From positions 40,316,403 to 40,380,402 of the forward strand of contig NC_088873.1 of the NCBI RefSeq assembly GCF_032884065.1: 64,000 nucleotides of DNA, written 5' to 3'. Below, piece after piece: positions 11,659-60,432 of this stretch. Below the pieces are notes generated by a model. That model saw only the letters and a list, made by a program, of their open reading frames with translations, was not told where the DNA came from and did not search any database. This DNA comes from Artemia franciscana (Eukaryota; Arthropoda; Branchiopoda; Anostraca; Artemiidae). Position 1 is the stretch's first letter. Each line of letters begins with the position of its first letter. The position numbers and the translations under genes were made by a program.

Positions 11659-13275
11659 ATGGCTTCATTTCATTTCAAAGTTCAAATCTTTCAAAGGAAG
11701 CTATCTGATAATTATGGAAATTTTTTTCCTGAAAAGAAAACTAAAAAGTGTTCAAATGATAAACTCTATATTAATGAACGTCTAAAAGCTAAGATCAAAG
11801 AAAAAATTCATTTACTTTGTAATGGTAAAAAAGATGAAGCCAACCATATGTGTAAAATGATAAAAAACAAATTTGAAAAGCAGCTGCCATATACTATAAA
11901 AATACTATGAAGGATATTTTTAATTATAACCCCAAGAAGTGATATGATCTAGTTAAATAACTTTCTGGCAAGCAAATTAGTAATATTGATTTCCAGCTTG
12001 ATGAGCCTAGTATTAAAAATGCTAATGATCTCAACAAATACCTGGCCAAGATTGTCTGGGCATTACCTCCATTTTCTGCAGAGACTCTTGAGTCTATTCC
12101 CCATAGTCAGGGTGAAAAACTTCCCCATGTATCACCAAAGGATATCAAGAAAAAGGTAAATAACCTAAAAAGGACAAGTACATGCCTATCAAATATTCAA
12201 ATCATGCTTGTCAAAGCCATTGCTGACAAGCTGTCCTTACCACTGGCAGATATTTTCTGCTCAATCACTGAAAGTGGATGCTACCCTGACGCCTGGAAGC
12301 TGGGATTTATGACGCAGGATTCAGAAGAAGGGCGCTGAGGAGGGTTTCAATGGGGTTCAACCAATTATGCTCACCTCAGTTTTTTTGAAATTATATGAAA
12401 GCTTTCTGACTGATTGGCTCAAATCAAAAATTGAAGAACTTATTGACCCAAAGCAATTTGGAAAACCCTGATGTTTGGCTAAATCTACTTCTAATAGACC
12501 TCCAAAAAGCTTTTGATCTGATTAACCACAATGTTTTAGTTGAGAAACTCCTAAAAGAGTTTCATGTAAACCCAAACCTTGTTAGAATAATGGTGTCTTT
12601 CCTTCCCAGTAGAACTCAATATGTAAAGTATAAAAATATCTATTCAGATCTCCTTCCAGTTTACACTGATGTGCCCCAGGGTACCCTCCTTGGCCTGCTC
12701 CTGTTCCTGATTATGATAAATCGACTTTTTACTGAATACCCTGACTGCTGGAAATTTGTTGACGACATGTTCTTACTGGGAAAATGCTGGAAAAATTTAA
12801 AGAGCTCAGCCATGGAAATCATGGAAGATATTTCAAGTGACGCTCTACAGGCTGACATGACTGTGAATGCCAAAAAATCACATATCATGACTATCACTTT
12901 CTTGAACAGTACTCCTTTATTCAAGCAACCAATCCCTCTGGAGATGTCTGTCCAGCAGTGCAAAGTCCTTGGTATCACTATTTTGAGCAATCTGAAGGGG
13001 GAGATCCACTTTACTAACATCACAAAGCAAGCTAATTTGGCACTTTCTGTGCTTAAATTTCTCTTCATGTTTTCTTGCCGTGCATTCTACCTTTTAAGAA
13101 TTGTAAGAATTATTTTTACAGGATTTTATTACATCTATGCTGAATTTTGCATTAGATCTATCCTCACCTCGAATCTGACAACATTGTTATGCAAATCATG
13201 TAATTTTTTGCTCCCTTATTGTTTACTTTTAAGCAAAACAGTTATTCTTTATTTTACAGTCTATCTGCAATGAAA
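11659..13275 (+). pseudogene. Non-LTR retrotransposon RT, decayed but nearly whole core
   Basis: The upstream part (from 11659) is Lys-rich (INERLKAKIKEKIH), like the region before RT in CR1/jockey-type ORF2. After a stop at 11910 and frame changes come SCYPDAWKLGF-like (12270) and PIMLTSVFLKLYESFLTDWL (12360-12420) blocks. A long open stretch at 12431-13273 has LLIDLQKAFDLINHNVLVEK (block A, Asp kept), VYTDVPQGTLLGLLLFLIMI (block B) and KFVDDMFLLG (block C, F-V-D-D, both catalytic Asp kept), then VLGITI. The palm is thus intact in one frame although the fingers are broken. No endonuclease domain is seen. Confidence 0.87.
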
Positions 13276-16395: not shown

Positions 16396-16452
16396 ATTTT
16401 GTTGCTGCTAGTTTAATGTGTGTCTTAGTTAAAGTATGATATTTATTTTCAG

Positions 16453-16580
16453 TCAGTGATAGGTGTTTCAACAAATCTATGGAAGATAAAGCTGGTTCAG
16501 TTATTGATAAGTTTTTTCAAGAGAATGATCTTCTAAGCAAATGTCGCATCATTGTGCCTGATGAAAAGAACATAATTATG
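16453..16580 (+). CDS. GPHN: Gephyrin/cinnamon exon: N-terminal part of the MogA-like G domain
   Basis: Acceptor CAG at 16450-16452 and donor GTATGT at 16581. The exon starts with the last two bases of a Val codon and encodes VSDRCFNKSMEDKAGSVIDK and then LLSKCRIIVPDEKNIIM. This matches the VSD-C motif and the IVPDE segment at the start of gephyrin, MogA and Cnx1-G, which adenylate molybdopterin before molybdate insertion. Two bases are carried in and the end is phase 0, matching the next exon at 32928. The previous exon, which should hold the start Met and the G-V-L-T strand, was not found in the window. The intron that follows is 16.3 kb and holds Helitron 1 and the LINE at 29.2-32.5 kb. 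Confidence 0.85.
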
Positions 16581-18599: not shown

Positions 18600-18765
18600 A
18601 AAAAACACTCAAAGAGAAATTACAGACCGGGACACAAATGACGACCGGGACAGAGGGAATATAAATAACGACCGGGACACTCAAAGAGAAATTACAGACT
18701 GGGATACCGGGACACAAATGACGACCGGGACACAGGGAATATAAATGACGACCAGGACACAGGTA
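18600..18765 (+). repeat. GACCGGGACAC minisatellite in Helitron 1
   Basis: Repeats of CGACCGGGACACAGGGAATA and ATAAATGACGACCGGGACAC, about 25-35 bp each, imperfect. The same words form longer arrays in Helitrons 2 and 3. Confidence 0.8.
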
Positions 18766-29397: not shown

Positions 29398-32088
29398 TCA
29401 TAGCTCATATATGACGCGCAACGGCAGGAAATCATAAAGGTGCTTAAGAGCACCTTTTCTAGCATTATTTTCCTGTTCTGCCACAGCTTCACGGGGATCT
29501 GGAATTTGATACTTATTCAAAAGAAATGAGTTTCTCTCGAATAGCGGTATGCGTATCAAAAACTTCAAATATCTACAAAACGCGGACCTAACTTTTAGTC
29601 TCTCTGTTTCTGTGAACCATTCCCAAAGCGGGGAAAGCTAAAGGACATGTGGTAATGCCACTGCTCTGTACGTCCTCGCTAAAATTTGCCGATTGTAAGA
29701 ATACTTCAGCGGGGCTAGTTTAGCATAGCTCACTCGCAGGCTAGACACAAGGGTATCAAGGCAAAGAGTTCTTGTAGTTTTCTTATCTCGGCCGTACCGA
29801 AGACCTAAATATTTGAGTGAAGAAGACGGTGCAATAATAGCACCATCTACGGATACAGTTGGTGCTGGTGCCTCTTGTTTTGCAGAGCTGAAAACCAGAA
29901 ATTCAGTTTTCTGGCCATTAACTTGTAGACCAATAGCGCTATAACCAGATACAAGCTCATCTAAATTATCCTGCAGTACTCTCAATGAGAAACTCAACAT
30001 AAGTAAATCATCAGCATAGCTTATTAAACTCAAATCACAAGTATCAAATCTTAGCCCGTCAGAAATTTGTTTTGTAACCTTAGAAGTCAACGTGTTAAAT
30101 AATATTGGACTTAAGACGGAACCTTGTCGAAGTCCTCTCTTTAGTTTAACTGGCTCACTGAGTTTTTCAAGCCCAAGTTTCACTCTTATATAGCTATTAG
30201 AGTACCAAAATGATAACATAGCTACTATATGGGCGTTCACACCGGCATCTAGCAAGGTGTGGAACACAGCAGACTGGATTACTGAATCAAATGCAGCGGA
30301 AATGTCAACACTACATATATGTACGGATAACGAAAGCACAAGCACAGCTGATATGTACGGATAACGAAAGCACAGCTGAGATGCTTTCGAAACCCAAACT
30401 GCCTGTAGTCTATCACACACTTCGATATAACTTCGCGAAGGACCAATTTTTCCAGCACCTTGCTCAATGTACTTGAGACAGTAATCGGCCTGTAGCCTCC
30501 ACACTCATTTGCGTTTTTTCCTTTCTTCAGGATGTTTGTAACGACTCCGGTACAAAACGATTTGGGGACGGTGGCACTATCTATACACATCTGAAAAAGT
30601 AGTTGCATATGCTGGATCAAAAGCGGTGAACCATTGCGCAGACGATTACTACTGACACCGTCAAGACCTGGAGCCCTGTTAACCTTTAACTGGCGAACAG
30701 CCCTCAAAACATCATTCACGGATATAAAAAAATAATTTCTCTTTTTCAGCAGTAGATCAAGACGCGATTTAAGCGATTCATCATATTCCTTTTCCAAGGG
30801 AGTATCTTTAGACCCGAAGACCTTCGAATAATGTCTTAACCACTGTTCCCCAGGTATCATGGCACATGGCTTGGACTGCACTTTACTACTTTTGAATTTT
30901 TTCCACATTTTTTGTGGGTCACGGATAGCCTCTTCCGAAGCAGTTTCTGCTTCCTTCACTTTCAGCTCATCCACACATGCTTTGTATTCTCTTTTTGTTT
31001 TACGAAAGAGATTGAAGACAGTGCCAGTCCTCGGCTTGCCGGAGTCGCGCCACACAGAATACCACATCTTAGACCTCCATTTGGCATGCTTCACGTAAGG
31101 ATGGTCACTCCATCCTCTTTTCCTTGTACCTTTCCTAATAATTGCACTAGGTACGGCTGCAGACTCAGCAAGTTTTAGCGCGTGAGTAATTTCAGCGCAG
31201 TATGTATTGAGTGCAATCTTGTGATCGCCCCATGGACAAGCAGCTGGAACGGGACTTTTATTTTGTCCAAAATTTCGTCACACATCGACTGGTACAGACT
31301 GAGGTTAATCTTTTTCCACTCGCGTCTTTCTGTATAATCTGGCCTTTTTGATTTCACATCGTGACTAAAAGGAACATTAAACTTAAGACCAAGATGATCA
31401 CTTGCGGTATGTTCTGAATACACATTACAGGCGAGGGAATAGAAAAGTTAGAAAAGAGGTGATCAATATTACTTGTGCTTCCTGGATTATGAATGAACGT
31501 AAAGTTTTGATCTTTAATATATGGAGAACAGTCACTCGGAGAACATGCCATAAGAACGTCCTGTAACTTTTCTTTCGAGAAGGGGTCACACTGGAAGTCA
31601 CCGCAGACTAAAAAACGCGAGCTTCCCAGCCTACGGAGTAGCCTTCCAATTTGACCGCAAGCCTCGGCATACCGTTTTTCAATATGATCCGTGTTCATGT
31701 TAGTTGGTTGGTATACATTGATTAGCGTGAAAGCACTTGGGCCTGGGAACTCGACTGCTATATAGAAATCGCACGACTCATGTTTACGACAGTCTATGCT
31801 CTCGTCAACAAATATTGCAAGTCCACCACTAGGTCGGCCCCTGACGCTAGAGCGCTTAACCTCATGAATGTGCACGGATTTATTAGTAACCGACTGAAAG
31901 AGCCCAAGGTTATCGGTAGTTAACAAGTGTTCTTGGACGCAAACAATATTATATGTGAGGCACAAGTTCTTGATGTAGTCCGATTTGGCAGCATTATGGC
32001 CGTAAACATTGCGGCAAAATATAGACAGTTCATTCATTTTCTTGTTTGAGGAGAAACTTTCTGCATTGCTCGTCGGACTGCTGGGCAC
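29398..32088 (-). pseudogene. LINE ORF2: APE-type endonuclease and reverse transcriptase
   Basis: ORF2 nicks the target and primes reverse transcription. The endonuclease (32088 to about 31380) shows LSIFCRNVYGHNAAKSDYI, VCVQEHLL (catalytic Glu), FTLINVYQP, FLVCGDFQCDPFS and, after a frame change, ASDHLGLKF (SDH motif). RT blocks include LKVNRAPGLDGVSSNRL, CGGYRPITVSSTLSKVLEKL, VDISAAFDSVIQSAVFH, RGLRQGSVLSPILF and LSLISYADDLLMLSF (intact Y-A-D-D), then GLQVNGQKTEFLVF and LKYLGLRYG. The C-terminal tail ends RVIYEL. Breaks: frame changes near 31425 and 31240, and a small tandem duplication at 30313-30380 that shifts the frame just before block A. Confidence 0.9.
30313..30382. repeat. Short tandem duplication inside LINE RT
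   Basis: ATATGTACGGATAACGAAAG plus CACAGCTGA occur twice with about 33-bp spacing. The duplication lies just before the block A codons and explains the local change of frame. Confidence 0.75.
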
Positions 32089-32525
32089 TGTAGACTAAAG
32101 CTAGGATGGCTATTATTAGTATCAGGGCACAAAACGCATTTCACTGTTTGAGAGTCGCAAGAGCTTTCTCTACTGTTCTCGTGGGGTCCAGCACATCTGG
32201 AGCATCGCATGCTATTGGTACAATCTTTAGCAAGAGGATCAAATGACTGACACTTGAAGCATCGCTTGGGAATTTGTCTGAATGGGAGGACTTTGATGTG
32301 AGTATAATCAATGAATAACCCATATTTGACTGCTGCATTTGGGGAGTCAGCGTCACTAAAGGTAAGTTTGATTGTCTCAGATTGACCATATCGCTTGGCA
32401 CTGACTAATTTGGAGTTAACAGAGAGCATATCATCATCTGTTGTGGCAAGGGGCACAAACTTGGCGATCGCGAAGAACTTTTCCTCACAAAAAGAAGCAC
32501 TTATATCATAATGCATTGAAGTCAC
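32034..32525 (-). pseudogene. LINE ORF1 (gag-like) C-terminal part
   Basis: ORF1 proteins of such elements bind the element RNA. The 163-codon stretch has a basic region followed by Cys/His clusters: RCFKCQSFDPLAKDC (a CCHC knuckle with Pro at the His position), RCSRCAGPHENSRESSC and CVLCPDTNNSHPSFSLQC. It ends MQKVSPQTRK, overlapping the start of ORF2 by about 55 bases. The amino-terminal part is missing because the element is truncated; the first ATG at 32525 is probably internal. Confidence 0.75.
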
Positions 32526-32530
32526 ATCTC

Positions 32531-32927: not shown

Positions 32928-33115
32928 GAAACACTGAAAAGGTTATGCGACACTGATAAAATGGACCTAATTGTTACGTCTGGGGGAACTGGTTTTTCTC
33001 CAAGGGATGTTACGCCAGAAGCTACGAAGATGATAATAGAAAAGGAAGCACCCGGTTTGGTTTTGGCAATGCTTAAAGGAAGTCTTGAAGTAACACCAAC
33101 GGCTATGCTCTCAAG
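32928..33115 (+). CDS. GPHN: Gephyrin/cinnamon exon: catalytic half of the G domain
   Basis: Acceptor TAG at 32925-32927 follows a short polypyrimidine tract; donor GT at 33116. The exon opens in phase 0 and encodes [20 protein letters not shown], then [32 protein letters not shown], and ends TPTAMLSR with the Arg codon split after two bases. [14 protein letters not shown] is the strongest family signature of MogA/gephyrin-G, which adenylates molybdopterin. The [11 protein letters not shown] join to the 36887 exon agrees with gephyrins. The last 24 bases and the donor are repeated 91 bases downstream (see the separate entry). Confidence 0.95.
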
Positions 33116-33272
33116 GTATTGTTTTTATGATGAATTAAAAAAAAAAAAAAATCACGAAAAACTTCATGTGTTTAGTAAAAAAAACACCAACGGCTATGCT
33201 CTCAAGGTATTGTTTTTATGATGAATTAAAAAAAAAAAATCACGAAAAACTTTTCCATGTGTTTAGTACAAA
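33092..33272 (+). repeat. 91-bp tandem duplication covering the exon end and splice donor
   Basis: Copy 1 begins at 33092 (AACACCAACGGCTATGCTCT) and contains the last 24 coding bases, the donor AAG-GTATTG at 33116 and the start of the intron. Copy 2 begins at 33183 with the same bases and a second identical donor at 33207. The copies differ mainly in A-tract length and a few bases near the end. Use of donor 2 would add 91 bases, which shifts the frame, so only donor 1 keeps the protein intact. Confidence 0.9.
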
Positions 33273-34297: not shown

Positions 34298-34370
<73 letters not shown>

Positions 34371-34376
34371 CATATA
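34298..34376. repeat. (TA)n microsatellite
   Basis: About 36 TA units immediately before the 5' end of Helitron 2. Confidence 0.95.
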
Positions 34377-34479
34377 TCTATATATATAAAAATAAGTTGT
34401 CTGTGGATCTGTGGATCGTGGATCAGGTGACGTCATGTTTGTCCGCATATGACGTCTGAATTATTTCACACTAATACAA

Positions 34480-35335
34480 AAGAAGAAAAAAACTAAAAAA
34501 AGTAAAAACTACAAAAAAAAACTAAAAAGAAAAAAAAACTAAAAAAGCTAAAAAACTAAAAAAAACTAAAAAAAGGTAAAAATCTAATAACTAAAAAAAA
34601 ACTGAAAAAAATAAAAAAAGGCAAAAACTACAAAAAAAATAAAAACTAATAAAAAAACTAAAAAAGCTAAAAAACTAAAAAAACTAAAAAAAACTAAAAA
34701 AAGGTACAAAACTAAAAAAAACTAAAAACTAAAAAAGAAAAAAACTAAAAAAAAGGAAAAAACTGAAAAATAAAAGAGAAAAAGAAAACTAAAAAAATAT
34801 GAATAAATATATATAAAAATAAGTTGTTTGTGGGTTATGTCTGTCTGTCTGTCTGTCGAGTGACGTCGTGTTTGTCCGCATATGACGTCTGAATTATTTC
34901 ACACTAATACAAAAGAAGAAAAAAAACTAAAAAAGGTAAAAACTACAAAAAAAACTAAAAAGAAAAAAAAACTAAAAAAGCTAAAAAACTAAAAAAAACT
35001 AAAAAAAGGTAAAAAACTAAAAACTAAAAAAAACTGAAAAAACTAAAAAAAGGCAAAAACTAAAAAGAAAAACTAAAAACTAATAAAAAAAGTAAAAAAG
35101 CTAAAAAACTAAAAAAACTAAAAAAACTAAAAAAAGGTAAAAAACAAAAAAAAACTAAAAACTAAAAAAGAAAAAACTAAAAAAAGGAAAAAACTGAAAA
35201 ATAAGAGAAAAAGAAAACTAAAAAAATATTAATAAAAAGAAAAAACTAAAAAAAAGGAAAAAACTGAAAAATAAGAGAAAAAGAAAACTAAAAAAATATT
35301 AATAAATATAAAAAATATAAATATAAATATAATAT
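34480..35335 (+). repeat. A-rich CTAAAAAA tandem tracts inside Helitron 2
   Basis: Two blocks (about 34480-34800 and 34915-35335) of near-repeats such as ACTAAAAAAGGTAAAAACT, each preceded by AAATAAGTTGT and CGCATATGACGTCTGAATTA. The blocks look like a duplication of the element's left end. No coding content. Confidence 0.8.
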
Positions 35336-35354
35336 AAATTAGCAATCAACAAAG

Positions 35355-35835
35355 CACCGAGACACAAATGACGACCGGGACACAGGGAGTATAAATGACG
35401 ACCAGGACATAAGTAAAAAAAAAAACTAAAAAAACTAAAAAAATGGTAAAAACTACAAAAAAACTAAAAACTAATAAAAAAACTAAAAAATCTAAAAATC
35501 TAAATAAACTAAAAAAGAAAAAAAAGAAAAAAGGAAAAAAATAAAGGAGAAAAACAAAACTAAAAAACGAATGTATATACAGACCGGGACACCGGGATAC
35601 AAATGACGACCGGGACACAGGGAATATAAATGACGACCGGGACACAGGGACACAACTACAATGGGGACGCCGGGGGGCACAGGGGGATATAAATGACGAC
35701 CGGGACACCGGGACACAAGGAATATAAATGACGCCCGGACACAGGGAATATAAATGACGACCGGGACACAGGGACATAACTACAAAGGGGACGCCGGGGT
35801 GCACAGGGGGATATATAAATGACGATGGCGACTCA
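35355..35835 (+). repeat. GACCGGGACAC minisatellite of Helitron 2
   Basis: Repeated ATAAATGACGACCGGGACAC, ACAGGGAATATAAATGACG and ACAACTACAATGGGGACGCC words, some 25-30 bp each, interrupted by an A-rich tract at 35415-35560. Confidence 0.85.
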
Positions 35836-35847
35836 GGGAATGGTCGA

Positions 35848-36037
35848 TTAGCAATCACCATCAACAAAGCTCAAGGGCAATCATTAGAATCATGAGGTAT
35901 AGATCTGAATACGGATTGTTTTCCCATGGACCATTATATGTTGCATGTTCAAGAGTCGGTAAACCTGAAAATCTATTTATATGCACAGACAATGGGACAG
36001 CAAAGAATGTTGTATATTCGCAAGTTTTACGTAGTTA
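35848..36037 (+). pseudogene. Helitron helicase C-terminal remnant
   Basis: Reads LAITINKAQGQSLES, a TGA stop, GIDLNTDC, then a one-base deletion in a T run shifts the frame before the HGPLYVACSRVGKPENLFIC and AKNVVYSQVLRS parts. The same stop and deletion occur in Helitron 3, so the damage came before the copies separated. Confidence 0.88.
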
Positions 36038-36039
36038 AA

Positions 36040-36078
<39 letters not shown>

Positions 36079-36159
36079 ATATTCACAGGTGGGACATAGG
36101 GACACAACTACAATGGCGCGTAACTAATATGGCGCGTAACGACTTACGCGCGCGGGGGG

Positions 36160-36234
36160 GCTTGGGGGGGGGGGCGCGAAGCGCCCCCACCAACTAGGTG
36201 TTGGGGTGGCGCGAAGCGCCACCCCAACAGCTAG
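36160..36234 (+). repeat. Tandem double 3' terminus of Helitron 2
   Basis: First terminus: hairpin arms GGGGCGC (36171-36177) and GCGCCCC (36181-36187), then CAACTAG ending at 36197. Second terminus: arms 36203-36212 and 36216-36225, then AACAGCTAG ending at 36234. Both have the hairpin plus CTAG form required of a Helitron end. Confidence 0.88.
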
Positions 36235-36270
36235 TATATTTATATATATAACATATATATATATATATGT

Positions 36271-36362
<92 letters not shown>
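36235..36362. repeat. (TA)n microsatellite with inverted motif
   Basis: TA repeats with a TATATAACATATAT/ATATATGTTATATA inverted pair near 36243-36280. Directly follows the Helitron 2 terminus. Confidence 0.95.
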
Positions 36363-36364
<2 letters not shown>

Positions 36365-36886
36365 GATATATGTATAATATATAAATATAAAAAAATACCT
36401 AGCACCCTCAAAGAATTTCATATGTGAAGGAGCACAGCATTGAAAAATAGGGCAATTGTATTGAAAATAAAGTATGTAAGAATTTTTTTTTTGCAGAAAT
36501 TGTTATCTTCTAGAGACCGCTTCAATTATTCATTTATGGCATCAAAACTCTGTTGGAAAAAAAATTCTGCAAATATATAGTCTTCAGATGATAGCTAAAC
36601 TTCTGCTTGGGTAGAACTAAAATAGAATTTTTGTTGTTGGATCCGTAGATTATTATAAGAAAACCTAATCCTCAATAGTAGCAGTGATATTTTTTTTCTC
36701 CCAAGAAGTCTGCAAACTGTTTACAAAACACGGCAGGATATGTGGGGAACCAGCAGGCTTATCAGTTTAATAATCTTTTAATTTTGTAATTACTATAAGT
36801 ATACTTGAGGTAGAATCTTTAGTAGCTAAAACTACATATTTTCGGTATTTTATTTTTACTTTTTTGACTATGATTATATTTTCAAG
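36363..36886. other. Gephyrin intron end, nothing recognised
   Basis: AT-rich sequence leading to the TTTTCAAG acceptor at 36886. Confidence 0.4.
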
Positions 36887-37118
36887 ACCGGTTTGTGGTA
36901 TTCGTGGCAGCACCCTTATTATAAACACTCCTGGAAGCCCGAAAGCAGTCGTCGAATGTTTAAATTTTATAAAGCCCTCGTTGAAGCATGCCCTTCAGCT
37001 TTTGAAAAACGATCTGGAACCAGTCAAAGTCACTCATGATGCGATGCAGTCCCTCCCTTCTCCAACTGAAGCTGCTTCTGCCACTGGTGAGATGAGGTAT
37101 TCTTGCTGTAAACACAAG
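36887..37118 (+). CDS. GPHN: Gephyrin/cinnamon exon: end of G domain and start of linker
   Basis: Acceptor AG at 36885-36886, donor GTAAGT at 37119. The first base completes the split Arg codon and the exon reads [20 protein letters not shown], then [20 protein letters not shown], finishing MRYSCCKHK in phase 0. PVCGIRG-TLIIN-PGS-K closes the molybdopterin-binding G domain in gephyrins. The SLPSPTEAA part is the start of the central linker, which in vertebrates carries scaffold functions but is short here, as in the insect protein cinnamon. No breaks. The next exon is 17.2 kb away. Confidence 0.95.
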
Positions 37119-37510: not shown

Positions 37511-38100
37511 AAGTATTAATTAAAAAAAAAAATCCGAAAAAAAGTTTTCTAAAGAAAAGTAAAGGCCATATGAAACATACGATCAGAAGAAACATAAATA
37601 TACAATAACTCAAACTCAAAACAACCAGAAATTACTATTAAAGAATAAATGAAACACAAAACGAACAGAAATTAAATAAACAATGAGAGAAAAAGACATA
37701 CAAAAGGTATTAACATAAATGAATAAATAATCTCAAAACGACTAAAGCTGACAAAAATCTCTACAAAGAAGAGTTTGGGTTTTGCCTCCTTCTTTTACTG
37801 TAAAAGTTTAAAACCTACTGCGTCATTCTTTAATAGTAATTTCTGGTTATTTTGAGTTTGAGTTATTGTAGGTTTGTATTTCTTCTGATCTTAAGTTTCA
37901 TATGGCCTTTACTAATCTTTAGAAAACTTATTTTTCGGAGTTTTTTTTTTAAATTAATTTCTGTTCGTTTTTGATTGCCAAAGTTCCCAAGTTTTTCAGA
38001 ATTTCCTATTTCAAAATATTTTTTTTTTATTCCAAAATAAATGAACAGTTTTGGCAATTACTAATAAATCAAACTGAATATGGGATATACAATGATATTA
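37511..38100. repeat. Diverged dispersed segment shared with 51.2 kb
   Basis: AAAGAAAAGTAAAGGCCATA, TCAAACTCAAAACAACCAGA and ATTTCTGTTCGTTTT blocks recur with drift at 51200-51430. It holds two inverted arms (37545-37630 against 37850-37935: AGTAAAGGCCATATGAAAC and GTTTCATATGGCCTTTACTA), suggesting a fold-back element linked to the LINE end just upstream. Confidence 0.6.
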
Positions 38101-51834: not shown

Positions 51835-54178
<2,344 letters not shown>

Positions 54179-54313: not shown

Positions 54314-54444
54314 GTGGAGCTTGATCCGGAATTGGTTGCAAGGCGTCATAGGGAATCTCCTTATCCTATGATCGCGGTTGAAGAGGCACAGGGAAAGGTT
54401 CTTGAGCATTGTCTAAGCTTGGGTGATGTAGTAAAACCCCTTCA
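54314..54444 (+). CDS. GPHN: Gephyrin/cinnamon exon: linker and start of MoeA-like E domain
   Basis: Acceptor TAG at 54311-54313, donor GTAAGA at 54445. In phase 0 it encodes VELDPELVARRHRESPYPMI, AVEEAQGKVLEHCLSLGDVV and KPL, and ends with two bases of a Gln codon completed by the next exon. VARRHR-SP-P---V--A---VL is the hallmark start of the gephyrin E domain, after the linker. The E domain inserts molybdate into adenylated molybdopterin and in vertebrates also dimerises and binds glycine receptors. No break. Confidence rests on the ARRHRESPYPM motif and consistent phases. Confidence 0.93.
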
Positions 54445-55496
54445 GTAAGAACCTTTATTTATTTATTTGTTTTCTAATAAGAGAATAAGAATGAATGTAT
54501 ATAAAAGAATTATAATTGTTGATAATATGTTAATCTTGAGAATGAAAACCATGACTACAGAATCATTATTTTATGCTTCCTAAGATGTACGATATTTGAA
54601 CTTATTTTTCTCTGGAACAAGGGTGTCAACACGGAGAGGGGCACGGGAACAATAGCCTCCCAGCATTCGAGAAATATTTTTTTTGTTAGTTCGATTTAAA
54701 AATAAAAAGTAAAAAAATTGCCCCCCCTCCTTTGGATTTGGTAACAAGCCTTCATTGTATCAGCACTAAAAAAAAATCAAAGAAATCGTTACCCCCCTAA
54801 CCCCTCATTTTTCGTGAGTTGGTGCAGGAATGAAGTTTGACAAAGATTATAAATAATACTTGTAATAATACTCTATTTCCTAGAAAATGCTGTATTTGAA
54901 TTAATATCTCTCTATAAAAAGAATGTAATCGGGGAGAGGTGGGAATTGTCTCCAAAAACTTGGAGAAATCCTTTTTTGGAATTTTCACTGAAAAAAAAAA
55001 TGCAGGCCCTGGATTTTGAAAATGCCTTTTTGCATCTTCATTTAAAAAAAATGGAAAAAAATCGCTGTCTCCTCCCTCATTTCTGTGAGTTGGTGCCATT
55101 GCTCTGGAATTATGTAATTGGCTCTTATCAGCCACAAAGGAACAACCTGTCTACATTCTGAGCTTGATCATGATATGGATCGCATAATAGAGCTGGAGGT
55201 ACTGTAAAGCACTGGATTTGGACCCTTTAGAGGTTGACCACCACCTTTGCCATGGATAAATATAAGGAAATTGCACTATGAGTTTATACAGATGGTAATT
55301 ATCTTATTGCCAAGACTAGTGGCATGCAAACAGATATTAGGTTGTACCTCAAATATTGCCATTCAAAAAAAAAGAATGATAAGTGAGTAATGTCAATTGC
55401 ATGCTTCAATTTTCGTCGTAAGCTTTTGGTCCGGCAGTGATGTCCGCTGCTCAACCATACTGGGGAAGAAAATTCTATTCCAATCACTACTCAGGA
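54445..55496. repeat. Two ~270-bp diverged tandem units, otherwise plain intron
   Basis: 54560-54830 and 54830-55100 share the order AAAATGCTGTATTTGAA-like text, a GGGGAGAGG block, GAGAAAT, an A-rich run, AAATCG, CCCCTCATTT and GTGAGTTGGTGC; the last motif is 271 bases apart in the two units. Nothing recognised from 55100 to 55496. Confidence 0.5.
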
Positions 55497-58400
55497 AACT
55501 TGAGCCATTAATACTGATTTGTGTAAAGTGTGCCAAGGGCCTTGACCAAAGATGAGTCTGCCAGCTAGCAGACTTATCTAGACTAGATTAGTCTAGATGA
55601 TTTAGAAAAAACTTGAGTCAATAATAATGATTTGTCCCAACTCTGCCAAGGATCTTGACCAAAGATGAGTCTGCCAGCTAGCAGGCTTATCTAGACTGGC
55701 CTATTCTAGATGACTTAGAAAAAACTTGAGTCAATAATAATGATTTTTTCCAACTCTGCCAAGGCTCTTGACCAAAGATGAGTCTTCCAGCTAGCAGACT
55801 TATCTAGACTAGATTAGTCTAGATAACTTAGAAAAAACTTGAGTCAATAATAATGATATGTGCCAACTCTGCCAAGGCTCTTGACCAAAGATGAGTCTGC
55901 CAGCTAGCAGACTTATCTAGACTAGATTAGTCTAGATGACTTAGAAAAAACTTGAGTCAATAATAATGATTTGTGCCAACTCTGCCAAGACCCTTGACCA
56001 AAGATGACTCTGCCAGCTAGCAGGCTCATCTAGTCTGGACTAGTCTAGATGACTTAGAAAAAACTTGAGTCAATAATAATGATTTGTTCCAACTCTGCCA
56101 AGGCTCTTGACCAAAGATGAGTCTGCCAGCTAGCAGACTTATCTAGACTGGACTAGTCTAGATAACTTAGAAAAAACTTGAGTCAATAATAATGATTTGT
56201 GCCAACTCTGCCAAGGCTCTTGACCAAAGATGAGTCTGCCAGCTAGCAGACTTATCTAGACTAGATTAGTCTAGATAACTTAGAAAAAACTTGAGTCAAT
56301 AATAATGATTTGTGCCAACTCTGCCAAGGCTCTTGACTAAAGATGAGTGTGCCAGCTAGCAGACTTATCTAGACTAGATTAGTCTAGATGACTTAGAAAA
56401 AACTTGAGTCAATAATAATGATTTGTGCCAACTCTGCCAAGGCTGTTGACCAAAGATGAGTCTTCCAGCTAGCAGACTTATCTAGACTGGACTAGTCTAG
56501 ATGACTTAGAAAAAACTTGAGTCAATAATAATGATTTGTGCCAACTCTGCCAAGGCTGTTGACCAAAGATGAGTTTGCCAGCTAGGAGGCTCATCTAGAC
56601 TGGACTAGTTTAGATGACTTAAAAAAAACTTGAGTCAATAATCATGATTTGTGCCAACTCTGCCAAGGCTGTTGATTAAAGATGATTCTGCCAGCTAGCA
56701 TGCTTATCTAGACTAGACTAGTCTAGATGACTTAGAAAAAACTTGAGTCAATAATAATGATTTGTGCCAATTCTGCCAAGACCCTTGACCAAAGATGACT
56801 CTGCCAGCTAGCAGGCTCATCTAGTCTTGACTAGTCTAGATGACTTAGAAAAAACTTGAGTCAATAATAATGATTTGTTCCAACTCTGCCAAGGCTCTTG
56901 ACCAAAGATGAGTCTGCCAGCTAGCAGACTTATCTAGACTGGCCTATTCTAGATGACTTAGAAAAAACTTGAGTCAATAATAATGATTTGTGCCAACTCT
57001 GCCAAGGCTCTTGACCAAAGATGAGTCTGCCAGCTAGCAGACTTATCTAGACTAGATTAGTCTAGATAACTTAGAAAAAACTTGAGTCAATAATAATGAT
57101 ATGTGCCAACTCTGCCAAGGCTCTTGACCAAAGATGAGTCTGCCAGCTAGCAGACTTATCTAGACTAGATTAGTCTAGATGACTTAGAAAAAACTTGAGT
57201 CAATAATAATGATTTGTGCCAACTCTGCCAAGGCTGTTGACCAAAGATGAGTCTTCCAGCTAGCAGACTTATCTAGACTGGACTAGTCTAGATGACTTAG
57301 AAAAAACTTGAGTCAATAATAATGATTTGTGCCAACTCTGCCAAGGCTGTTGATTAAAGATGAGTTTGCCAGCTAGGAGGCTCATCTAGACTGGACTAGT
57401 TTAGATGACTTAAAAAAAACTTGAGTCAATAATAATGATTTGTGCCAACTCTGCCAAGGCTGTTGACCAAATATGAGTCTGCCAGCTAGCAGACTTATCT
57501 AGAATAGATTAGTCTAGATAACTTAGAAAAAACTTGAGTCAATAATAATGATTTGTGCCAACTCTGCCAAGGCTGTTGACCAAAGATGAGTCTGCCAGCT
57601 AGCAGACTTATCTAGATTAGATTAGTCTAGATGACTTAGAAAAAACTTGAGTCAATAATAATGATTTGTGCCAACTCTGCCAAGGCTGTTGATTAAAGAT
57701 GAGTTTGCCAGCTAGGAGGCTCATCTAGACTGGACTAGTTTAGATGACTTAAAAAAAACTTGAGTCAATAATAATGATTTGTGCCAACTCTGCCAAGGCT
57801 GTTGACCAAATATGAGTCTGCCAGCTAGCAGACTTATCTAGAATAGATTAGTCTAGATAACTTAGAAAAAACTTGAGTCAATAATAATGATTTGTGCCAA
57901 CTCTGCCAAGGCTGTTGACCAAAGATGAGTCTGCCAGCTAGCAGACTTATCTAGATTAGATTAGTCTAGATGACTTAGAAAAAACTTGAGTCAATAATAA
58001 TGATTTGTGCCAACTCTGCCAAGGCTGTTGACCAAAGATGAGTCTGCCAGCTAGCAGACTTATCTAGATTAGATTAGTCTAGATGACTTAGAAAAAACTT
58101 GAGTCAATAATAATGATTTGTGCCAACTCTGCCAAGGCTGTTGACCAAAGATGAGTCTGCCAGCTAGCAGACTTATCTAGACTAGATTAGTCTAGATAAC
58201 TTAGAAAAAACTTGAGTCAATAATAATGATTTGTGCCAACTCTGCCAAGGCTCTTGACCAAAGATGAGTCTGCCAGCTAGCAGACTTATCTAGATTAGAT
58301 TAGTCTAGATGACTTAGAAAAAACTTGAGTCAATAATAATGATTTGTGCCAACTCTGCCAAGGCTGTTGATTAAAGATGATTCTGCCAGCTAGCATGCTT

Positions 58401-59545
58401 ATCTAGACTAGACTAGTCTAGATGACTTAGAAAAAACTTGAGTCAGTAATAATGATTTGTGCCAACTCTGCCAAGGCTGTTGATTAAAGATGATTCTGCC
58501 AGCTAGCATGCTTATCTAGACTAGACTAGTCTAGATGACTTAGAAAAAACTTGAGTCAGTAATAATGATTTGTGCCAACTCTGCCAAGGCTGTTGATTAA
58601 AGATGATTCTGCCAGCTAGCATGCTTATCTAGACTAGACTAGTCTAGATGACTTAGAAAAAACTTGAGTCAATAATAATGATTTGTGCCAACTCTGCCAA
58701 GGCTGTTGATTAAAGATGATTCTGCCAGCTAGCATGCTTATCTAGACTAGACTAGTCTAGATGACTTAGAAAAAACTTGAGTCAGTAATAATGATTTGTG
58801 CCAACTCTGCCAAGGCTGTTGATTAAAGATGATTCTGCCAGCTAGCATGCTTATCTAGACTAGACTAGTCTAGATGACTTAGAAAAAACTTGAGTCAATA
58901 ATAATGATTTGTGCCAACTCTGCCAAGGCTGTTGATTAAAGATGATTCTGCCAGCTAGCATGCTTATCTAGACTAGACTAGTCTAGATGACTTAGAAAAA
59001 ACTTGAGTCAGTAATAATGATTTGTGCCAACTCTGCCAAGGCTGTTGATTAAAGATGATTCTGCCAGCTAGCATGCTTATCTAGACTAGACTAGTCTAGA
59101 TGACTTAGAAAAAACTTGAGTCAGTAATAATGATTTGTGCCAACTCTGCCAAGGCTGTTGATTAAAGATGATTCTGCCAGCTAGCATGCTTATCTAGACT
59201 AGACTAGTCTAGATGACTTAGAAAAAACTTGAGTCAATAATAATGATTTGTGCCAACTCTGCCAAGGCTCTTGACCAAAGATGAGTCTGCCAGCTAGCAG
59301 ACTTATCTAGACTGGCCTAGTCTAGATGACTTAGAAAAAACTTGAGTCAGTAATAATGATTTGTGCCAACTCTGCCAAGGCTCTTGATCAAAGATGAGTC
59401 TGCCAGCTAGCATGCTCATCTAGACTAGACTAGTCTAGATGACTTAGAAAAAACTTGTGTTAGTAATAATGATTTGTGCAAAATTCGCCAAGGGTCTTGA
59501 ACAAAGATGAGTCTGCCATCTAAAAGATCCATCTAGACTAGCTAG
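55497..59545. repeat. 113-bp satellite array, about 36 units
   Basis: Successive copies of ACTTGAGTCAATAATAATGA are exactly 113 bases apart (e.g. 55611, 55724, 55837). Each unit has GACTTAGAAAAAACTTGAG, CCAACTCTGCCAAGGCT, AAAGATGAGTCTGCCAGCTA and an inverted motif TCTAGACTAG-x-CTAGTCTAGA. There is one AluI site (CCAGCTAGC) per unit. Outer units (55497 and 59450 on) are degenerate, inner ones 90-100% alike by eye. It lies wholly in a gephyrin intron. Period, AluI site and A-tract fit what I remember of Artemia AluI satellite DNA. Confidence 0.95.
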
Positions 59546-60278
59546 CATCTTGCTAAATCTGTTAATAGAAAGACTGATTTATTTATTAAAAGTAATTGTT
59601 CGGATAAAAAAGAAGAAAGCATACACAACATGTTGGCATTTAAATACAATCTCACCAAGTTATATTATAATAAGATTTTAAAAAGTTATTATTTCCCCAA
59701 CAAAATAGTGAAGACATGCACAGCTTACCCTTAGAGGGAGGGAGAAGATTATAATATTCCATTTTGAGGATTGATGAAAGGTAAAGATCGATCCAAGCTA
59801 GTAAAATTTGCACTTCAATCATCACTGATTTTCCAGAACTTGCCAACTTTGAAGCAGATTTGAGTGGCTTGCAAGTAAGAAGTAAGGCTACTTTTTGACT
59901 TATGTACTGTCTTTTGATCACACAAAAAAAAATTGTTGAACAACTATTAAGACACTTGAGGAGTTGGTAGATTTGTTCATTTTCTAGCTATTTTATTGAG
60001 AATGAGGCTATTAGGGCTGAGTTAGTATGCAAAAATGGGCTTGTTAATTCCTATTGTACGCTTTTTGTAAAAGTAGTTCATTTATATCAGCCTCAAAATA
60101 AAGCGGAATCATCAGATTTTAAAATCACCGACTTTAAAATCAATTATCTGTAATATCTGTAATAATCATGGCCTGAAAAATAGAATTTTCGTCACAACAA
60201 GTAAAACAACTACATAATTTATCGCTTTTATTGTCCGTTTTTTGAATGGTAGTAATAAGTATTTAATATTATTTTAAG
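59546..60278. other. Gephyrin intron, nothing recognised
   Basis: AT-rich sequence between the satellite and the next exon. An 89-codon frame on the minus strand (59652-59921) has no recognisable domain. Confidence 0.4.
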
Positions 60279-60432
60279 ATTCGCTTTGGGACAAGTTCTT
60301 GCGGAAGATGTTTATGCCAGCGATCCTTTGCCCCCATTTCCTGCGTCAGTGAAAGATGGCTACGCTGTAATAGCTTCGGATGGTATAGGGAAGCGTCTTG
60401 TTATATCTGAAGCCTCCATCTGTGGATCGAAG
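60279..60432 (+). CDS. GPHN: Gephyrin/cinnamon exon: E-domain core
   Basis: Acceptor AAG at 60276-60278, donor GTGAGT at 60433. The first base completes the Gln codon, then [40 protein letters not shown] and [11 protein letters not shown], ending in phase 0. [21 protein letters not shown] is the most conserved MoeA/gephyrin-E signature and forms part of the molybdopterin active site. The sequence is unbroken. The rest of the E domain (the motifs with TTGAPIP, STGDEL and LPGNP) must lie beyond 64000; I looked for the first of these between 60433 and 64000 and found none. Confidence 0.96.

Follow-up and report, generated by a model that had tools for sequence, protein, structure and literature searches.

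The window analysed here is a stretch of 64,000 nucleotides of Artemia franciscana DNA. Its plus strand carries exons of a gephyrin gene and, inside one intron of that gene, a long tandem array of 113-bp units. The exons, the intron, the parts of the array, and its flanks are as follows, in coordinates of the window.

16443..16565, plus strand: gephyrin G-domain exon (match weak, E=0.03, but colinear)
32928..33116, plus strand: gephyrin G-domain exon (human gephyrin match)
36876..37064, plus strand: gephyrin G-domain exon (human gephyrin match)
54314..54444, plus strand: gephyrin E-domain exon on the 5' side of the array (gephyrin homology; donor GTAAGA)
54445..60278, plus strand: gephyrin intron enclosing the array, 5,834 bp, as set by the flanking exons
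55104..55495, plus strand: array-proximal part of the 5' flank, 392 bp (genome search: self-match only, query 660-1051)
55496..59450, plus strand: 35 full units of exactly 113 bp, with 22 distinct sequences (Tandem Repeats Finder and anchor search)
57304..57981, plus strand: two identical tandem copies of the three-unit block T14-T15-T16, 339 bp each (higher-order duplication, from unit distances)
58321..59224, plus strand: run of eight units (array units 26-33) of types T19 and T20, which differ in a single column
59451..59541, plus strand: 36th unit, truncated and diverged, at the 3' edge of the array (similarity stops at about column 91, near 59541)
59546..60278, plus strand: 3' flank, 733 bp (genome search: self-match only)
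60279..60432, plus strand: gephyrin E-domain exon on the 3' side of the array (gephyrin homology; acceptor TTTTAAG)

The exon search used a human gephyrin sequence as the query, which also matched the plus strand at 54320-54424 and 60268-60417. When exons 54314-54444 and 60279-60432 were joined, the resulting 95-aa product matched human gephyrin (PDB 9s3f_A) with E=4.3e-21 and aligned without a gap over the exon junction, where a codon is split CA/A between 54444 and 60279. Reading on past the donor at 54444 leads to an immediate stop. Additional gephyrin matches lie beyond the window at 40,390,733, 40,397,471, and 40,400,897 of the same contig (C11), on the same plus strand and in order. Four of the eight gephyrin matches in the genome contain one or two stops each, and the stop that falls inside the window comes from the splice-acceptor TAG. 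The gapless joined translation, the donor and acceptor, and the CA/A split bear out the sequence-only reading of this DNA, which had placed the array between two gephyrin exons with matching phases (54444 and 60279). The homology of these exons suggests that the array would be removed with the gephyrin intron by splicing.

Tandem Repeats Finder, run on the window, placed the array at 55496-59545 with a period of 113, 35.8 copies, 94% matches, and 0% indels. An anchor search found 36 unit starts arranged head-to-tail, with a spacing of exactly 113 bp in 35 of 35 steps, and these two results agree with the earlier count of about 36 tandem units of exactly 113 bp. A 22-mer unit probe with up to 3 mismatches allowed had 35 matches in the window and none in 100 shuffles. 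Such an array lies well outside what chance would give. The mean pairwise difference among the 35 full units is 6.8%, without indels, and their sequences have 35 variable columns with 43 distinct base changes. Each full unit contains one AluI site (AGCT; 35/35). Self-similarity inside one monomer was chance-like at any lag (637 of 1000 shuffles scored as high).

Relatives of the unit were sought in the Artemia franciscana assembly (1,270,528,402 bp in 6,468 contigs). All 30 genome-wide matches of an exact 20-mer of the unit fell within the array, with none elsewhere in the 1.27 Gb. With up to 3 mismatches allowed, the matches of a 31-mer (32/32) and a 33-mer (34/34) were likewise confined to the array. 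These 3-mismatch probes overlook 4 of 36 (31-mer) and 2 of 36 (33-mer) of the array's own units, so that relatives more than about 10% diverged would escape them. A similarity search of the genome with 901 bp of the array returned 8 rows, all within the array; since this search passes over very common words, for the array query and for both flank queries, the lack of a match elsewhere for the array or its flanks is not proof of uniqueness. Probes of the unit had 0 matches in viral contigs, and 1,243 bp of the array had no match in plasmids. The unit 20-mer had one match in each of 3 species-representative prokaryote contigs. All three belong to MAGs named uncultured Bacilli bacterium isolate Lapin, and we take the matches as chance.

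The published AluI satellite of Artemia is heterochromatic and has a 113-bp unit, one AluI site per unit, and sequence-directed curvature. The sequence-only reading had raised the identification of the intronic array with this satellite, which would make the array a euchromatic block of an abundant heterochromatic repeat. From each of 32 small contigs (2.9-57 kb) a piece of 1.2 to 4 kb was examined, and in 19 of them the main array was an abundant 113-bp satellite of the assembly, here labelled A113. A 116-bp repeat was the main array in 1 contig, 3 contigs had another array, and 9 had no array that reached 40 bp x 4; the gephyrin-intron unit was the main array in none of the 32. In six contigs where AluI sites were counted, the A113 arrays have 31 to 37 of them per 4 kb, compared to 35.4 expected for about one site per unit. 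A113 is presumably the published AluI satellite, judged by the length of its unit, its AluI site, and its abundance. An exact 27-mer of A113 had 314,758 matches in the genome (154,494 forward and 160,264 reverse) and its reversed control had 0, which would amount to about 2.8% of the assembly if every 27-mer match stands for one 113-bp unit.

A113 and the gephyrin array are alike in their 113-bp unit, in having about one AluI site per unit, and in their head-to-tail arrangement within the same genome, and the common length, the AluI site (exactly one in each of the 35 full units here), and the common species speak for a shared identity. By contrast, alignment detected no similarity between the A113 consensus and the gephyrin unit: the score was 16, compared to a shuffle mean of 17.2, and 206 of 300 shuffles scored as high. 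GC content is also lower in the A113 consensus (28%) than in the gephyrin unit (40%), the 314,758 matches of the A113 27-mer stand against 36 units of the gephyrin array, and probes of the gephyrin unit have no match elsewhere in the assembly. Small indels are frequent in A113, where spacings were exactly 113 bp in 295 of 373 cases at 20 loci, compared to 35 of 35 in the gephyrin array; another 74 of the 373 were 111, 112, or 114-116 bp, and 4 were larger, although the sampled contigs behind these figures may be poorly polished. The 116-bp repeat, from contig C4500, had no supported relation to the gephyrin unit (45 of 300 shuffles were as good). Positions 38002-38027 of the window hold a single weak A113 match of 26 bp (E=0.011), which was disregarded.

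The comparison of consensus sequences that the sequence-only reading had proposed was thus made against A113 in place of the published clone, and it gave no similarity. The abundant AluI-bearing repeat of 113 bp differs in sequence from the gephyrin unit, whose probes match only this array in the assembly, and the proposed identity falls away. A euchromatic block of A113 is refuted for the abundant repeat as such, and A113 presumably is the published AluI satellite, by its length and site; overall, we regard a euchromatic block of that satellite as almost certainly the wrong explanation. Because A113 differs and the probe matches are confined to this locus, the gephyrin array is uninformative on the spread of the heterochromatic satellite, and the length of 113 bp in both repeats reflects coincidence or some unexplained parallelism rather than any kinship that can be detected.

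Mobile elements with tandem cores exist, and the array could be the tandem-repeat core of one that entered the intron, whether Helitron-like or of another kind. Helitrons make up 8.81% of the published Artemia franciscana assembly, by the figure given in its description (PMC11492255), which favours this reading. The genome search with the 5' flank also gave 17 matches, of which 16 are weak, lie elsewhere in the genome, and fall in query 488-659; these weak matches imply an old repeat fragment some 400 bp away from the array on its 5' side. However, the 733 bp of the 3' flank and the 392 bp at the 5' edge match only themselves, and the probes and the similarity search revealed no further copy of the array in 1.27 Gb. 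No repeated element enclosing the array was seen within the reach of the word-skipping genome search. An inserted mobile element is, in our judgment, highly improbable.

The internal order of the array points to growth from a local start. Nearby units are closer to each other than in shuffled order, with values as low in only 4 of 5000 shuffles at k=1, 0 of 5000 at k=3, and 99 of 5000 at k=7. The identical 339-bp blocks are array units 17-19 and 20-22, and the eight-unit run of types T19 and T20 probably arose in the latest local amplification. Among the full units, unit 1 diverges most, with 12 differences compared to 9 in the next; its divergence and the truncation of unit 36 are what homogenisation of the interior by exchange would predict. 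Taken together, the likeness of neighbours, the identical blocks, the eight-unit run, and the diverged unit 1 give the usual picture of unequal-exchange growth. Decayed units were looked for in the intron flanks and none were found (138 of 200 and 89 of 200 shuffles were as good). The absence there of decayed units, which growth in situ might have left, speaks against such growth.

We conclude that this is very probably a private, satellite-like array of in-place origin that grew by local unequal exchange or slippage and would be spliced out with its intron. The confinement of all probe matches in the assembly to the array, the array-proximal flanks without another match, and the gephyrin exons that follow in order beyond the window also favour this reading. 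In the mechanism that we propose, a 113-bp stretch of the gephyrin intron would have been duplicated in situ, and, as a suggestion only, the palindromes of the unit may have aided this first duplication through hairpin-provoked slippage or break repair. Expansion and partial homogenisation would have followed through local unequal exchange or slippage, one to seven units at a time. The array would be transcribed within the gephyrin pre-mRNA and taken out together with the intron. We infer that the origin was in situ, that unequal exchange was the motor, that transcription and splicing are normal, and that there is no selected function.

Another reading is an assembly artefact, with the array misjoined into gephyrin or its copy number wrong. 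Two 3' gephyrin exons are present again about 494 kb upstream, identical over 801 of the 801 bp compared, and this second copy is probably a false duplication, which implies some assembly trouble in this region and lends the artefact some support. Runs of identical units could also have been collapsed or expanded, and the unit count in the young eight-unit run could be wrong. Against this reading, the window contains no N bases, and the array is therefore not at a marked scaffold gap. Moreover, the gephyrin exons are colinear on either side of the array, and the 22 distinct units in ordered blocks would suggest that long reads had read through it. Since the unit was found nowhere else, there is also no other known source for a misjoin. 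We consider an artefact quite improbable.

The unit of the gephyrin array consists in part of overlapping palindromes, and its predicted folding is strong. For 8 units, the predicted RNA fold has a z of -9.7 in the sense and -10.05 in the antisense direction (20 dinucleotide shuffles each); for two units, z is -5.13 for RNA (200 shuffles) and -4.33 for the DNA strand. Selection might then hold the array as a tandem-hairpin small-RNA precursor, or as a chromatin or regulatory element kept to 113 bp. The palindromes, the folding far better than shuffles at both lengths, and the exact spacing in 35 of 35 steps favour such a function, as does the lack of a GTRAG donor and of AATAAA on both strands of the array. 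However, strong folding follows by construction from the repetition of a palindromic unit. Compensatory changes were looked for in the predicted hairpins, and 0 of 18 pairs were altered on both sides; neither the cells paired (94.9%) nor the covariation score was above shuffles (500 of 500 and 343 of 500 were as high). The T19/T20 variant of the young run disrupts two pairs of the first hairpin, which also argues against selection on structure. Two further points count against a function: 11 ATTAAA motifs on the sense strand of the array, and a longest invariant run in its units of 12 columns, which is no more than chance would give (1606 of 5000 permutations).

Other searches for a function pointed in the same direction. 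A scan of the window with Rfam at the gathering score was empty, as was a tRNA scan of the window. In a wedge model, the predicted curvature of the gephyrin unit was ordinary (55 of 300 shuffles were as curved), A113 was somewhat curved (19 of 300), and curvature failed to single out the array in the window. We consider a selected function unlikely, and, as far as the sequence allows a judgment, the array probably has no function beyond its removal with the intron. Two narrower candidates were considered. For an hpRNA siRNA locus, the long structured transcript is a predicted fold (z of -9.7 for 8 units), and no compensation that would keep the structure was seen, with changes on both sides in 0 of 18 pairs. 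A tandem exon array is contradicted by the lack of a GTRAG donor and of any stop-free stretch above 38 aa, the longest being on the minus strand. As a point against our main reading, zero indels beside at least 43 base changes is stricter than drift would be expected to leave, and stricter than in A113, and could mean constraint.

The chromosomal sample, 20 pieces of 4 kb taken one each from C1-C20, gives a background for arrays in this genome. Counting units of 40 bp or more in 3 or more copies, arrays were present in 5 of the 20 pieces, one of them A113 and the others with units of 284, 66, 118, and 136 bp. In the 136-bp array (L099), which has 3.9 copies, 3 of 3 genome probe matches fell within the array itself, a second such case that favours the private reading of the gephyrin array. 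It is like the gephyrin array in being local and tandem, with a probe that has no other match in the assembly, and unlike it in having fewer copies and, by eye, acceptor-like motifs in its unit.

Intronic and euchromatic satellites are described in other animals. The 1.688 (359-bp) satellite of Drosophila is credited with 572 intronic insertions in five species and occurs in Netrin introns (PMC7642928). It resembles the gephyrin array as a satellite-type tandem array in introns of conserved genes, as that report presents it (PMC7642928). By contrast, 1.688 is, in the same account, a dispersed family with heterochromatic blocks, whereas no second locus of its family was found for the gephyrin array. 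Euchromatin-dominant satellite DNAs, for example those of oyster and Tribolium, have been reviewed (PMC10048060). As characterised there, they are tandem repeats outside heterochromatin (PMC10048060), as the gephyrin array presumably is. They differ in forming many-copy families along chromosomes, in the terms of that review, whereas one locus was found here. For Daphnia pulex, the repeat survey gives units above 8 bp, within a 1-50 bp range by region, as much rarer in introns than elsewhere (PMC3152781), which implies that a 4-kb intronic array would not be typical there. Artemia introns are long, with a reported mean of 3,458 bp (PMC8406910).

Several oddities are left: the length of 113 bp in common with A113, the strict conservation of that length, and the palindromes with their strong predicted RNA folding. 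The units of the gephyrin array, of A113, and of the C4500 repeat are 113, 113, and 116 bp long, each with one AGCT. It is conceivable, though we think it most improbable, that unrelated Artemia repeats converge on about 113 bp because something in that genome selects this length, for example a chromatin particle, a step in replication or excision, or a palindrome-pairing protein. The units of 66, 118, 136, and 284 bp that the chromosomal samples also hold speak against such a length rule. If the rule were true, the gephyrin array would be a newborn satellite caught under it, with a transcribed hairpin array as the substrate.

By its position and structure, the gephyrin array is a clean local example of an already known kind, the intronic satellite-type array. 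The tempting inference that the AluI satellite had entered a gene is removed, and a satellite-like array that was found at a single place stands instead. A by-product of the work is a whole-assembly count for A113, the 314,758 exact 27-mer matches given above. Single-locus arrays such as this one help the study of satellite birth, because their edges and block duplications are visible and no other copies confuse the history.

The abundant 113-bp satellite of A. franciscana (A113), which is distinct from the 113-bp gephyrin unit, contains ≈1 AluI site per unit in samples of the A. franciscana assembly, and its count across the genome was 314,758 exact 27-mer matches. A113 is also carried by the large scaffold C1, at 50 kb, 2.65 Mb, and 10 Mb. 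Among the stretches sampled from assembly contigs (L numbers), two satellites were placed as follows:

L051-L054, L056, L057, L060; L062, L066-L068, L070, L072, L074-L077, L080, L081; L082 1-4000: A113
L058 162-4000 (contig C4500): 116-bp satellite, one AGCT per unit

Alignment of the 116-bp satellite was not clearly above shuffles with either A113 (26 of 300 equally good) or the gephyrin unit (45 of 300). Other tandem arrays were present in chromosomal samples. By eye, the units of a 118-bp x 7 array (L098 3164-4000; C17:10003164-10004000) resemble an acceptor (TTTTTCAG), a short exon, and a donor (GTAAGT), and this array is possibly a tandem exon array. An acceptor-like motif also occurs in the L099 array (136 bp x 3.9).

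Within the gephyrin array, TT at columns 51-52 of variant units creates ATTAAA, which resembles a poly(A) signal and occurs 11 times on the sense strand:

window 56626-59224, columns 50-55, sense strand: variant units bearing ATTAAA

A gephyrin exon in the window is flanked, one per side, by two inverted copies of a ≈2.1-kb block (34298-36397 and 51878-53946; 95% identity) composed of (TA)n, A-rich, and GGGACACAGGG repeats; similar motifs appear at 18605-18763, and some of the sampled contigs, L050 for example, carry them too. Frames inspected by eye in the ORF list resemble pieces of LINE endonuclease and reverse transcriptase at 29638-32528 (-) and 11961-13273 (+).

Finally, two gephyrin 3' exons occur twice on C11 of the assembly (39903119-39906728 and 40397471-40401079), with near-identical spacing of the pair and 801/801 bp identity over the compared stretch. 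This doubling likely represents a false duplication or a very recent segmental duplication.
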